From NCBI GenBank assembly GCA_003724185.1, contig RHGM01000007.1:1-64000 (forward strand): a DNA stretch of 64,000 bases, in the 5' to 3' direction. The translations under genes were made by a program, and so were the position numbers. The stretch is from Porphyrobacter sp. IPPAS B-1204. Lineage in GTDB: Bacteria; Pseudomonadota; Alphaproteobacteria; Sphingomonadales; Sphingomonadaceae. The notes beneath the pieces were generated by a model, which had not been told where the DNA came from, did no database searches, and worked only from the letters and a program-made list of their open reading frames with translations. Of this stretch, positions 20,621-25,945 are shown in pieces (within the stretch, counting starts at the first letter, position 1; every line of letters starts with the position of its first letter).

Positions 20621-21673
20621 CTATTCGCTTCCCACCGCTTCGGCAATGCTGGCAAAGCCATCGCGCCGCATCAGCCGCTCCAACCCGCGCACGATCTGAC
20701 CGCCAAGGCCGGGGCCTTCATAGACCATGGCCGAGTAAAGCTGCACCAGCGAAGCGCCTGCCCGGATGCGCTCCCACGCGTGCTCGGCCGTGGCAATCCC
20801 GCCGACGCCCACCAGCGGCACGGCGCCGCCAGTGGCCTTGCGGAAATCGCGCAGACGCTGGAGCGCAAGTTCGCGCAAAGGTGCGCCTGAAAGCCCGCCC
20901 GTCTCGCCCGCATGATGCGAACGCAGCGCCGGTCGGCTGATCGTAGTGTTCGATACCACGAGCCCGCCCAGCTGCTTGTCCAGCGCGATCCGGGCAATGG
21001 CATCGATATCGGCAGGTTCGAGATCCGGCGCGACCTTGAGGAAGATCGGCGGCGGCGCGTCACCCGCCGCTTCGCCCCGCGCCGCAATCACCGCGTCGAT
21101 CAACGCGGTCAGCGCGCCTTCATCCTGAAGTGCGCGCAAGCCCGGGGTGTTCGGACTGGAAACGTTGACGCAAAGATAGCTCGAAAATGGAGCCATCAAT
21201 CGTGCCATCACCGCATAATCGGCGATGCGATCGGTGGAGTCCTTGTTGGCGCCGATGTTCACGCCGACAATGCCGCCCCTTGGCCCCGCCCTTCCGGCGC
21301 GCGCCCGAAGCCGCGCCAAAGCCGCCTCCGCGCCGCCATTGTTGAACCCCATCCGATTGATAACCGCCTGATCTTCAACCAGTCTGAACAGGCGCGGCTG
21401 AGGATTGCCCGCTTGCGGCAGGGGCGTGATCGAGCCGACCTCCGTGAACCCGAAACCGAGGCCAAGCAGTGCGTCGGGCACTTCGGCATCCTTGTCGAAC
21501 CCCGCCGCGACGCCCACCGGATTGGGGAAGGCAAGCCCCGCCACTTCAACCGCCAGCAGCCCGGCCGCCGCGGGTGCGCGCCGCGGCAGGGCGGCGAGCG
21601 AGCGAATCGCCAGCCGGTGGCCGGTCTCCGAATCGAGGGCGAACAGGGCAGGCTTGATCAGGCGAAACAGCAT
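20621..21673 (-). CDS. pyrD: dihydroorotate dehydrogenase (quinone), class 2
   Basis: 350-residue membrane-associated FMN enzyme of pyrimidine synthesis, passing electrons from dihydroorotate to quinone. The N-terminal helical extension typical of class 2 (LFRLIKPALFALDSETGHRL) is present. It is followed by FPNPVGVAAGFDKDAEVPDA, TEVGSITPLPQAGNPQPR, MGFNNGG and the catalytic serine in NVSSPNTPGLR, and the C-terminal GVGGI and YSAMVYEGPG phosphate site. Ggt is directly downstream. Confidence 0.96.
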   Translation of the reverse strand: MLFRLIKPALFALDSETGHRLAIRSLAALPRRAPAAAGLLAVEVAGLAFPNPVGVAAGFDKDAEVPDALLGLGFGFTEVGSITPLPQAGNPQPRLFRLVEDQAVINRMGFNNGGAEAALARLRARAGRAGPRGGIVGVNIGANKDSTDRIADYAVMARLMAPFSSYLCVNVSSPNTPGLRALQDEGALTALIDAVIAARGEAAGDAPPPIFLKVAPDLEPADIDAIARIALDKQLGGLVVSNTTISRPALRSHHAGETGGLSGAPLRELALQRLRDFRKATGGAVPLVGVGGIATAEHAWERIRAGASLVQLYSAMVYEGPGLGGQIVRGLERLMRRDGFASIAEAVGSE

Positions 21674-21739
21674 CCTGCGCGACTATGTCAGAGCGTCCGG
21701 CATGTCGAGCAAATCGGCCGGAAAACCAAAAATGCTGCA

Positions 21740-21932
21740 CGATAAGCCATGTATTTCAGAAGGATGACCGCATACCCCCCGAATAGGGGATGATGCGTGT
21801 CGCTTGCATACAATCCCTCTGACGATTCGCTGTCTAAAGGCTGTCTTGCGACCCGAAGGGCTCGGAGCAGCAATGCAAAGAGTTCCTCAACTCAGATAGG
21901 CGGCGTTCCCCATGGGAGCGCCGCCTTTTTTT
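21740..21932 (+). ncRNA. candidate small RNA ending in a strong terminator
   Basis: The 339-base region between divergent pyrD and an AraC-type gene has no convincing ORF, but holds a perfect intrinsic terminator (21898–21932). Upstream there is a hairpin pairing CGCAT and CCCC (21769–21778) with GGGG and ATGCG (21786–21797). A long-range TTGCAT/ATGCAA pairing (about 21804 and 21873) brackets the middle. No gene on the plus strand precedes the terminator, so an independent transcript is the simplest reading. The 5' end is a guess. No known RNA family is claimed; a 6S-like RNA is one possibility to test. Confidence 0.4.
21898..21932 (+). terminator. strong intrinsic terminator with no upstream gene
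   Basis: A 13-bp stem (AGGCGGCGTTCCC pairing with GGGAGCGCCGCCT, with one G·T pair) and a three-base CAT loop is followed by seven T. This is the best intrinsic terminator in the window. It lies between two divergent genes, so it cannot end either of them. Confidence 0.85.
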
Positions 21933-22012
21933 GCCCGCTTCGGCCCGCCTTTGATTGTCTTGCCTGTTTTTGACTGGGGAAAGAAATCTGGCATGAGGCG
22001 TTCGGCCCAGAC

Positions 22013-22933
22013 ATGAACACGCAACTCGCCCCAGATGATGTCACCCACGGCCTGCCGGGCGGCAGTGAAACGCTCACCTCTGCTGCACTGATCGCGGTCG
22101 ATTACATCGCGCCCCCGCCTACCATCGCGCCCTATGTGACCACGCTCTACCATTTCCGCTGCGACGAGCCGGTGATCCGCGATATCCAGCCGGCTGCCGT
22201 CGGCCAGTTGTGCCTGTTTCCGCATGGCACTGGCGAAATGCACTTTGCCGAAGGGCACCGCGATCCCAACCATGCGGTGGGCCTGCTGACCCCGCTTTCG
22301 CGCGCCACGCCGATTATCGTCATGGGGCCGTTCCATGCGTTCGGAGCGGCCTTGACCCCGGTGGGCTGGGCCGCGCTTACCGGTCTGCACGCCGGGCAGC
22401 ACCGTGACCGGCTGCTGCCCGCTGCCAGCGTGCTCGGGCCGGAGATCGACGCGCTGGGCCAGCGGCTGATCGCGGCCTACCGGCAGGGCACCATGACCGG
22501 GCGGGAATGTGCCCTTGCCGTCGGCGGCTTCATCGAACGGGGCGTAAAGCCCGTCAATCCGCGCCATCTGGAACTGGTTGCGGCCACGGGACGCTGGCTG
22601 AGCGCTTCCTTCAATCCCGAGCTGAGCGAGCTTTCCGGTGTGGCCGGCTATTCCGCGCGGCAGGTGCAGCGGCTCGTCGAACGCTATTTCGGCCTGCCCC
22701 CGCGTGCGCTGGCCCGCAAATACCGCGCCCTGCGCGCCGCCGCGCTGCTGTCCGCCCCCCAATTGTCGCTGGAGGACGAAGCCGAAATCGCGGAAGCCTT
22801 CTTCGATCAGCCGCACATGATCCGCGAAATCGCCCATTTTGTCGGGCGCACCCCGGCGCGGCTTGGCGATGAAACAACGCCCTATCTTGCCGAGATGATT
22901 GACGGTCGGAACCTGCGCGAACTCAATCCCTGA
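22013..22933 (+). CDS. AraC-family transcriptional regulator
   Basis: 306 residues. The N-terminal half (about 1–190) is a sensor region starting near IAPPPTIAPYVTTLYHFRCD. The C-terminal part carries two AraC-type helix-turn-helix motifs: ELSGVAGYSARQVQRLVERY, then the second around FFDQPHMIREIAHFVGRTPA. A second AraC-type gene with the same layout follows after 95 bases; the proteins align over both halves (SARQVQRLVERYFG versus SPRQLQRICRRFFG), so they are probably tandem duplicates. Ligand and targets are unknown. Confidence 0.87.
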   Translation: MNTQLAPDDVTHGLPGGSETLTSAALIAVDYIAPPPTIAPYVTTLYHFRCDEPVIRDIQPAAVGQLCLFPHGTGEMHFAEGHRDPNHAVGLLTPLSRATPIIVMGPFHAFGAALTPVGWAALTGLHAGQHRDRLLPAASVLGPEIDALGQRLIAAYRQGTMTGRECALAVGGFIERGVKPVNPRHLELVAATGRWLSASFNPELSELSGVAGYSARQVQRLVERYFGLPPRALARKYRALRAAALLSAPQLSLEDEAEIAEAFFDQPHMIREIAHFVGRTPARLGDETTPYLAEMIDGRNLRELNP

Positions 22934-23028
22934 TCACCGCGCCTCTCGACAAGCGTGCACCAGTCGCGCACAATCATATCCGGGTCGCGCCGTACAGGAG
23001 GGGGGTCTCCGCAAGGAGAGGTAAGGGG

Positions 23029-23892
23029 TTGCAGTTCCGTACAAAGATGATCGCGCCTCCGGCTGATGCGGCCGGGTTGGTCAACACGTTCTACATCATC
23101 GAAACCGGTAGCGAGACCATCGAAGAGGCGATTCCGGCCTATTCGGCTCAGCTGCTGATCATGGTGCGCGGGAAAGTCAGCTTCACCTTCGCCGACGGGA
23201 GCGTGGGGCAATCCTCCACCGTCTTCATCAACGGGCCGCAAATGCGCAGCGCGCGTGCGCTGCTGGAAGGGCCGGTGTTGCAGATTGGCGCTTCGCTCAC
23301 GCACACCGCCTGGCAGCGGCTCGCCAATCTCCCGGCGGACGAGGTGCATGACCAGCTGATCCCTGCCGAGGCCGTGCTGGCTGCCGACCAGATTGCCATG
23401 CTCGAAGCCGCTGCGGCGGCCTGCCGCGAGGGGCGGATCCCGCCCGAGGCGCTGTGCACCCATCTCACTCAGGCCATCGCCTCCGGTCGTCACCGGCTTC
23501 ACGGCGATCAGGTCGCAGTGGTCGAGGCGATCCTGCGCTGGCTGGCGAGCGGGTTCGATCCGGCGCTGGCCGATCTTTACGCCAGCGTCAGCGTTTCGCC
23601 CCGCCAGCTCCAGCGCATCTGCCGCCGCTTCTTCGGGGTGCCGCCCGCGCAGGTGCTGAAGCGCTTCCGCGCCCTGCGCGCAGCCATGCTGCTGGCCCAG
23701 CCGGCGACCAGTCAGGAATTGCACGATCAGCTGATGGCGACCTATTTCGATCAGGCGCATCTGATCCGTGACATCCGCCGTTACGCCGGACGCACGCCGA
23801 CCCAGTTCCGGCGCGAATCGCTGGTCGACGAATTGCTCGATCCGGCAGCGCACGGGGACGCGGGCACGCCGCTGAAGGCCGCTGCCGAGTAG
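23029..23892 (+). CDS. AraC-family transcriptional regulator (tandem paralogue)
   Basis: 287 residues starting at TTG, chosen because AAGGAGAGG ends seven bases before it; the next in-frame ATG (23047) is too far from that site. The N-terminal cupin-like sensor segment contains AYSAQLLIMVRGKVSFTFAD. The C-terminal AraC DNA-binding domain has SVSPRQLQRICRRFFG and TYFDQAHLIRDIRRYAGRTP. It sits between its paralogue and the suf regulator. A role in suf control is possible by position only. Confidence 0.85.
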   Translation: MQFRTKMIAPPADAAGLVNTFYIIETGSETIEEAIPAYSAQLLIMVRGKVSFTFADGSVGQSSTVFINGPQMRSARALLEGPVLQIGASLTHTAWQRLANLPADEVHDQLIPAEAVLAADQIAMLEAAAAACREGRIPPEALCTHLTQAIASGRHRLHGDQVAVVEAILRWLASGFDPALADLYASVSVSPRQLQRICRRFFGVPPAQVLKRFRALRAAMLLAQPATSQELHDQLMATYFDQAHLIRDIRRYAGRTPTQFRRESLVDELLDPAAHGDAGTPLKAAAE

Positions 23893-23929
23893 AACACCCG
23901 CAATCGCCCTGTCGCCGGCGCTTTGGCGG

Positions 23930-23958
23930 TTGTAATCCGAACAAATTGCTCCTAATTC
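23930..23958 (+). promoter_or_regulatory. putative suf operon promoter
   Basis: TTGTAA, then 17 bases, then TAATTC, forming a plausible sigma-70-type -35/-10 pair. It ends 41 bases before the start of the Rrf2 regulator gene. The inverted-repeat operator begins two bases after the -10 box, so it would cover the transcription start. Confidence 0.45.
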
Positions 23959-23959
23959 C

Positions 23960-23984
23960 AATTCGGACTGATTCCGTCCGATTT
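23960..23984. promoter_or_regulatory. putative Rrf2/SufR operator (inverted repeat)
   Basis: AATTCGGAC and GTCCGATTT are near-perfect inverted arms (8 of 9) separated by seven bases, placed between the putative -10 box and the regulator start codon. This is the expected place for an autorepressing Fe-S-sensing Rrf2 regulator such as IscR or SufR. Binding is inferred. Confidence 0.5.
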
Positions 23985-23999
23985 GAGAACCGCTCGCAA

Positions 24000-24433
24000 A
24001 TGCGCCTGTCCAACCTTGCCGATTATGCCGTCATCACGATGTGCCAGGCTGCCCTGCATTGCGGCAACGGGCGGGTGAGCGCGGCTGAACTGGCGGCTGA
24101 GACGGGCCTGCCGGTGCCGACCGTGCAGAAGCTGGTGTCGAAGCTGACGTCGGCGGGTCTGCTCCGCTCTGTCCGCGGCGCGCATGGCGGCTTGCAGCTG
24201 GGCCGCCCGGCGGCGGCGATTACGGTGGCCGACATTGTCGAGGCGATCGAGGGGCGCATCGCGCTCACCGCCTGTGTCGATCACACCGCCTGCGATTACG
24301 AGGCAAGCTGCAACATGAAGCCGCACTGGCCGATCATCAACAACGCGCTGCGCGGGGCGCTGGCGGGGATCACCCTTGCCCAACTGCGCGGACCGGTCGC
24401 AGCGCCGACCCCATTCGTCGAGGACCATCTGGC

Positions 24434-24437
<4 letters not shown>
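24000..24437 (+). CDS. Rrf2-family Fe-S cluster-sensing regulator of the SUF operon
   Basis: 145 residues from the ATG at 24000 ([11 protein letters not shown]); the reading frame extends 18 codons upstream without a usable start. A winged HTH ([37 protein letters not shown]) is followed by three cysteines spaced Cx5Cx5C ([13 protein letters not shown]), the cluster-binding pattern of IscR-like proteins. It probably senses cluster supply and represses its own operon. It is the first gene of the suf string and overlaps sufB by four bases. An inverted repeat lies just upstream. Confidence 0.92.

Positions 24438-25941
<1,504 letters not shown>

Positions 25942-25945
<4 letters not shown>

Follow-up and report, generated by a model that had tools for sequence, protein, structure and literature searches.

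SuhB of Sphingopyxis granuli is described, in the cited sections of its report, as an Hfq-dependent translational repressor (PMC6563040), and the mmgR/SuhB family (RF00519) comprises short alphaproteobacterial sRNAs with a hairpin, a C/U-rich stretch and a strong terminator. In Caulobacter crescentus, the short non-coding RNA CcnA carries a C-rich pairing element and has been tied to the cell-cycle regulators CtrA and GcrA, its setting being given in the abstract as Caulobacterales and Rhizobiales (PMC8959179). GsrN, a structured sRNA of Caulobacter, exposes a C-rich element in its 5' part. Passages of its report describe it as driven by the EcfG sigma factor and located mostly near the general stress locus, and state that a gsrN-like gene is not apparent in Erythrobacter litoralis (PMC5869019). 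Among relatives of the sphingomonads, the Zms sRNAs of Zymomonas include some with a role in stress tolerance. SuhB and the Zymomonas set are the only characterised sphingomonad sRNAs in the portions of the literature that we found. The Sphingopyxis granuli genome is credited, in the part of its report cited here, with 11 ncRNAs predicted with Rfam models (PMC4741004), and a prediction of that kind should miss the RNA described below because it is based on Rfam models. Sphingomonads, like erythrobacters, are common inhabitants of soil, fresh water and sea water, and a family-wide RNA with an invariant leader would offer an entry point to sphingomonad post-transcriptional control.

Here we analyse a locus of Porphyrobacter sp. 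IPPAS B-1204 within a stretch of 64,000 nucleotides (contig RHGM01000007.1; the window). A first-pass annotation had pointed to an unannotated small RNA at 21740-21932. We give a probability of roughly 0.7 to the reading that 21848-21932 encodes, as a gene of its own, a trans-acting small regulatory RNA of ~85 nt. Judged from sequence comparisons, it is a real sphingomonad sRNA family that was not found in Rfam or in the literature searched. The RNA is ordinary in kind. It shares the short form, hairpin, C/U-rich stretch and strong terminator with mmgR/SuhB and, compared by description only, the C-rich pairing element with CcnA, from which it differs in the setting reported in that abstract; with GsrN it has the structured body and exposed C-rich 5' element in common, although an EcfG-type promoter was not noticed. 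The constancy of its leader and promoter is striking, and there is possibly a link to the methylation clock.

The locus and its terminator

The gene lies in the 339-base gap between pyrD and a gene for an AraC-type regulator, with the following features.

20621-21673, minus strand: pyrD (dihydroorotate dehydrogenase; Pfam PF01180, 273.5 bits), the conserved divergent neighbour
21798-21814, plus strand: promoter box TGTCGCTTGCATACAAT (family consensus TGTCGNTTNCATACAAT, 17 bp), at about -50 to -34
21824-21828, plus strand: GATTC, a GANTC (CcrM-type) site, at -24 to -20
21833-21838, plus strand: -10-like element TCTAAA, with TA at -13/-12 in the window copy; putative as an exact hexamer
21848-21932, plus strand: small RNA of ~85 nt, from conservation and covariance model, with a predicted 5' end accurate to 1-2 nt
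21848-21857, plus strand: invariant 5' leader GCGACCCGAA, unpaired in the consensus structure; candidate seed
21858-21885, plus strand: stem-loop, GGGCTC (21858-21863) with GAGTTC (21880-21885)
21867-21869 / 21874-21876, plus strand: inner helix GCA/TGC, closing a loop that is often GNRA-like
21885-21897, plus strand: pyrimidine-rich linker with CCTC (21885-21888), from sequence and fold
21898-21932, plus strand: intrinsic terminator, stem 21898-21926 and T run 21926-21932; 8 of 8 scored pairs change on both sides
22013-22933, plus strand: AraC-type regulator gene (PF12833), a frequent downstream neighbour of the RNA

The terminator hairpin has 13 pairs (10 G-C) and a loop of 3, followed by the seven T that the first-pass annotation had listed. 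That annotation had also called it the best terminator of the window, and in stem length this holds: the runner-up sites have 11 pairs (41340-41315, minus strand) and 10 pairs (53400-53378, minus strand), and scans over the whole window found no second terminator-like site reaching 13. Being placed between pyrD on the minus strand and the AraC-type gene on the plus strand, it serves as the end of neither, as had been noted. It should be mentioned that terminator-like sites are about as numerous in the window as chance predicts (12 versus 11.0 expected), with counts close to the shuffle mean in three of four scans and somewhat above it in the fourth (15 versus 10.1); the case for the sRNA thus depends on conservation, and the hairpin taken by itself would give a modest lead. 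Folding of 21740-21932 (193 nt) gives z -3.7 against shuffles, with 0 of 200 equally good, and 21817-21932 gives z -3.1, with 1 of 200.

Conservation and distribution

A search with 21730-21940 matched 59 of 100 genomes, namely our own and 58 of the 60 others of the genus (G002 and G023 had no match), and 0 of 39 genomes of other families of the order. The conservation anticipated for a real RNA gene is thus present within the genus. In relatives the earliest match starts at 21775 and the stronger ones mostly at 21786-21798, and many of the weaker ones do not begin before 21841-21848; the ends mostly fall at ~21932-21936. The conserved unit consists of the promoter at 21798-21847 and the RNA of ~85 nt at 21848-21932. 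A compact hairpin (~21770-21796) and a long-range pairing, which had been taken as parts of the unit, fall away, the sequence upstream of the promoter box being variable; a proposed size of 100-190 bases shrinks accordingly to ~85 nt.

A covariance model, R1, was built from an alignment (A1) of 63 of the 67 loci L001-L067. L062 was left out as it has no recognisable terminator, and L061, L066 and L067 because they repeat retained rows. R1 matches the window's own copy at 21846-21933. At E<=0.01 its matches cover 200 of the 298 GTDB-family genomes and 76 of 96 genera; about 144 genomes (hand count) reach E<=1e-5 in the same survey, so the weaker matches may include chance ones. L062 itself (in G008) keeps the box and leader while its linker and terminator are unrecognisable, and may be a decayed copy or an assembly fault.

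A second covariance model, built from 60 wider copies, matched 85 of 196 genomes in an order-level sample at E<=0.01, of which 81 belong to the family and four are weak matches outside. Three of these four (L373, L374 and L375) contain neither GCGACCCG nor GACCCGAAG; the fourth is in G435. In a class-level sample of 289 the same model gave four matches at E<=0.001, three of them in the family. The remaining one, L282, contains GCGACCCGAAGGGC but has neither the box nor a T-tailed terminator in its stretch, and we judged it a chance match. Among the outside genomes sampled, no copy beyond the GTDB family appears convincing.

An exact-pattern scan of named genomes returned at least 118 stretches. 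Eighty loci listed from such genomes (L091-L170) were used solely for covariance-model scoring; 77 score >=34 bits and carry the RNA, and the other three, MAG loci labelled Gammaproteobacteria or Lysobacterales, reach 18-23 bits only. Named hosts include Erythrobacter, Porphyrobacter, Qipengyuania, Altererythrobacter, Aurantiacibacter, Altericroceibacterium and Novosphingobium sp. B1. Some genomes have three or four matches (e.g. G171). Our own genome has one, the next match there reaching 25.6 bits (E 0.016). A plasmid- or phage-borne origin was rejected, as 21794-21934 has no match at E<=1e-5 in either collection.

Synteny and promoters were counted over 125 loci, made up of L001-L067 and 58 loci hand-chosen for diversity (18 of the 30 loci of the family survey and 40 further regions). 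The match L086 (same site as L053) and the antisense match L269 lie outside the 58 but are included in alignment A2, described below.

Structure of the RNA and coding potential

The transcript part begins GCGACCCGAAGGGCTC, after a variable spacer that puts the end of the promoter box 32-33 nt before GCGACC. RNAalifold consensus structures from A1 and from A2, an alignment of 60 diverse rows, agree on an unpaired leader, an outer helix GGGCUC/GAGUUC, an inner helix GCA/UGC, a linker and the terminator. In A1, whose 63 nearer copies were aligned by sequence alone, changes on both sides of a pair are confined to the terminator, and the stem-loop hardly varies. In A2, 96.9% of cells are paired versus 83.6% in shuffles, both-side changes occur at 13 of 17 pairs (shuffle mean 8.2, reached by 0 of 500) and 110 cells show such changes versus 23.3 in shuffles; the fitting of A2 to R1, whose structure stems from A1, biases these figures towards the structure. 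When the pairing partner is shifted by 1-3 columns, pairing falls to 32-61%. Within the stem-loop, 98.6% of outer-helix and 97.3% of inner-helix cells are paired, with both-side changes at 2 of 6 pairs (5 cells) and at 3 of 3 pairs, respectively.

A rival 5' hairpin, CGA-CCC-GAA-GGG-UCG, was rejected. It pairs in 92.7% of cells, but both-side changes are seen at 0 pairs and 17 of 51 cells fail to form its outer pair. Over 100 copies the mean predicted probability is 0.86 for the outer helix and 0.07 for the alternative 5' hairpin. In the window's own copy the family fold (0.47 versus 0.27 for the local 5' hairpin) is not dominant. The linker varies across the family (UUCUUUUCCUUA, UUCUCGACUU, UUCUCUCCUU), and in the window copy it is able to form a small local hairpin, GAGUU-CCUC-AACUC.

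The stretch had been described as holding no ORF. Mechanical frames do cross 21740-21932, for example 21797-21973 on the plus strand (58 aa), and an ATG at 21873 starts an 8-codon frame inside the RNA; both look non-coding, so that the sense of the description stands. The ATG of the short frame is absent in 29 of 125 copies, and the start of the T run relative to the leader uses all three phases (44, 40 and 33 copies), on which grounds we rejected a small-ORF reading. Covariation, together with the lack of a conserved ATG or phase, argues for a conserved, structured, non-coding RNA. An unannotated small RNA, as first proposed, appears by far the best reading of 21740-21932. It is supported by family-wide conservation, compensatory changes, a dedicated promoter and stand-alone extra copies.

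The leader and a possible mode of action

Positions 1-8 of the leader are identical in all 125 loci, which were all retrieved with queries containing the leader, and positions 9 and 10 are kept in 122 and 123, respectively. Its mean predicted unpaired probability is 0.65-0.90 for nt 1-7 and only 0.29-0.57 for nt 8-10. From these predictions the leader would be the best candidate seed. The linker carries an anti-Shine-Dalgarno-like CCUC or UUUUCCUU which, together with the U tail, we take to resemble an Hfq-binding module, and Hfq domains are encoded in the same genome. One open frame of 228 aa there (L376, G000:C6:170633-171058) contains two Hfq domains; tandem Hfq is known from Zymomonas.

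We infer the following course from these features. RNA polymerase would initiate at ~21848 from the dedicated promoter and stop at the terminator. The resulting RNA would expose the leader GCGACCCGAA, followed by the branched stem-loop, the pyrimidine-rich linker and the U-tailed terminator. The leader, and perhaps also the CCUC/UUUUCCUU linker, would base-pair with mRNAs near their ribosome-binding sites, with Hfq on the linker and U tail assisting the pairing. The probable role of the RNA is to turn other genes on or off, and this may follow the cell cycle.

In five of five genomes, exact matches to the complement of the 10-nt leader are outnumbered by the reversed control (11 versus 49 in our own genome, G000). 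Of the 79 places that match in these genomes, 77 were judged by eye and revealed no recurring gene; the other two and three of the 77 are the sRNA's own site. That this search gave no mRNA target is one point in favour of a protein-sequestering RNA of the 6S or CsrB-like kind, in which a protein would bind the leader and stem and no mRNA would be paired. Pairing with mRNA targets that drift would, moreover, hardly seem to call for a leader this constant. We consider such a role unlikely. The RNA has no 6S match, a repeated motif within one molecule was not noticed and the protein partner is hypothetical.

Gene neighbourhood and extra copies

The gene pyrD is found upstream and divergent in 102 of the 125 loci, with its start codon 107-250 nt from the sRNA in 101 and at 1034 nt in the exception, L025. 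Predicted pairing with pyrD mRNA over 101 loci is -34.0 kcal/mol for cognate, -33.8 for non-cognate and -33.2 for shuffled partners. The cognate value carries no signal, and pyrD as a cis target was rejected.

Downstream, an AraC-type gene on the plus strand is present in 72 of the 125 loci and an Rrf2-type regulator gene in 54. In the window, 22013-25945 contains two AraC-type genes, then an Rrf2-type regulator gene, then sufB; in several relatives the Rrf2-type gene directly follows the sRNA in place of the AraC-type gene. A second kind of copy, here called type II (11 loci: L056, L059-L061, L064-L067, L232, L237 and L259), has the leader, box remnants and terminator at a different genomic place. 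In 11 of 11 the next called gene downstream is on the opposite strand. Of five that were inspected, four are flanked by a minus-strand gene on their left side as well; the left gene of L065 was called plus. The RNA stays constant while its neighbours change and so looks like an independent gene, and the extra copies with only an opposite-strand gene downstream point to a stand-alone sRNA rather than a leader. The arrangement is that expected of an independent, terminator-ended transcription unit, as far as sequence can indicate.

Alternatively, the RNA may belong to the downstream AraC-type gene as its 5' leader or attenuator, with the terminator deciding read-through. The AraC-type gene lies on the same strand in those 72 loci, including 11 of the 23 without a pyrD match; the distance from the T run to its start is only 30-160 nt in 60 of the 72, and at the main locus the following gene often has the same orientation and begins 40-100 nt downstream. 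However, 53 of the 125 loci have no AraC match in the flank examined. For these, the next gene according to a rough gene caller is a plus-strand gene in 25 loci (Rrf2-type and peptidase-like genes among them) and a minus-strand gene in 20, with none called in 8; a few of the 20 minus calls resemble the antisense of an Rrf2 gene. A regulated same-strand gene in every copy, as an attenuator or riboswitch leader would have, was not found, the gene after all 11 type II copies being on the opposite strand. No anti-terminator was noticed on casual inspection. In addition, 11 of 60 gaps contain TTGAC (3.3 on average in shuffles, 9 at most), which hints at a separate araC promoter; a stricter -35/-10 pattern in the gap gave 2 matches only. 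We regard the attenuator as quite improbable. It is noted that L004, L015, L016, L032, L041 and L042 have promoter-like arrangements (TTGAC...CATNNT/NAG or TTGTGTC...GCTA) directly after the T run and a short way before the AraC start, perhaps the AraC gene's own promoter.

Relation to known RNA families

An Rfam search at the gathering score gave no match to the sRNA region, and 6S RNA is absent both there and among the five matches at E<=10. The 6S models suggested at first are therefore of no help, and 6S RNA or membership in any Rfam family was rejected. That the RNA is a remote member of the mmgR/suhB family (RF00519) is very improbable: a sub-threshold alignment covers its 3' part (14.3 bits, E 1.8) and one sRNA copy (L086/L053, G005:C151) scores 32 bits, but the gathering score of 41 is not reached, a true copy lies elsewhere in the same genome (L080, G000:C6:1605135-1605210, 48.4 bits) and is not reported by R1 at E<=0.01, and leader and box are absent from the RF00519 copies listed. 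The RNA differs from mmgR/SuhB in leader, promoter and locus, and orthology with mmgR was rejected on the score and on the separate true copy. A shared ancestor is hard to exclude, the 32-bit copy hinting at a very old link or at convergent design. RF00519 matches occur in 98 of 100 genomes at E<=0.001, and in 82 of 100 above the cut-off.

A literature search for the leader sequence found nothing. The main text of two Zymomonas Zms sRNA papers contains no mention of pyrD, dihydroorotate or GCGACCC, and the sRNA is not described in titles or abstracts on small RNAs of sphingomonads and relatives among the matches listed. The RNA may well be listed without a name in an RNA-seq table.

The promoter and its GANTC site

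A loose form of the box occurs in 124 of 125 loci, the exception being L025. Promoters sharing <75% identity in the 60 nt that precede the leader were treated as non-redundant (100 of 125); the box could be aligned on GTCG in 98 of them, giving the consensus TGTCGNTTNCATACAAT. Its position is the one expected for a class II activator or an unusual -35 element. A 20-mer containing the box, searched in our own genome with up to 3 mismatches, hits its own site only. In the -10 region, T at -12 is found in 60 and A at -11 in 70 of the 100 promoters.

Caulobacter cell-cycle promoters with GANTC between -35 and -10 form a recognised class in the sections cited, which place the site at ~-29 in ctrA P1 and at -24 in podJ P2 (PMC4287350). 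The window copy has its site within this interval, at -24 to -20. In the family, GANTC falls within -36 to -15 in 48 of the 100 non-redundant promoters, compared with 427 of 12404 windows taken from the flanks and 38 of the 700 lying at -150 to -55 in the same loci (3-5%). The latter control matters because GANTC is, as part of one report states, generally over-represented in alphaproteobacterial intergenic DNA (PMC7987155). The 33-nt spacers carry GANTC in 51 of 100 cases (mean 10.2 and maximum 23 in 1000 shuffle rounds) and seven other pentamers of the same shape in 2-14 each; the central base is A in 22, T in 17, C in 11 and G in 1. These statistics ignore relatedness among promoters, and a p-value derived from them is not a fair probability.

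The placement of GANTC suggests control of the promoter by GcrA and CcrM. About half of the family promoters have no such site, so methylation cannot be the sole control. Just 31% of GcrA-bound cell-cycle start sites in Caulobacter have GANTC within 50 bp, according to the portion of the report cited (PMC4287350), which implies that GANTC and GcrA are not equivalent. We propose, tentatively and with the balance somewhat against it, that the sRNA is an epigenetically clocked riboregulator across sphingomonads: GcrA, a CcrM-methylated spacer GANTC and a further factor at the TGTCGNTTNCATACAAT box would allow one firing per replication, and the invariant leader would adjust a conserved set of mRNAs. 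With a GANTC-bearing promoter in hand, the idea of a methylation-timed sRNA is directly testable.

The same genome encodes GcrA (PF07750), a methylase with N6_N4_Mtase and RAMA domains, whose top NCBIfam model is CcrM (599.9 bits, under the model cut-off of 830), and a DUF1153 protein, presumably of the SciP family. The leader starts with GCGAC, given in the cited part of the Caulobacter report as the half-motif of the cell-cycle repressor SciP (PMC4287350).
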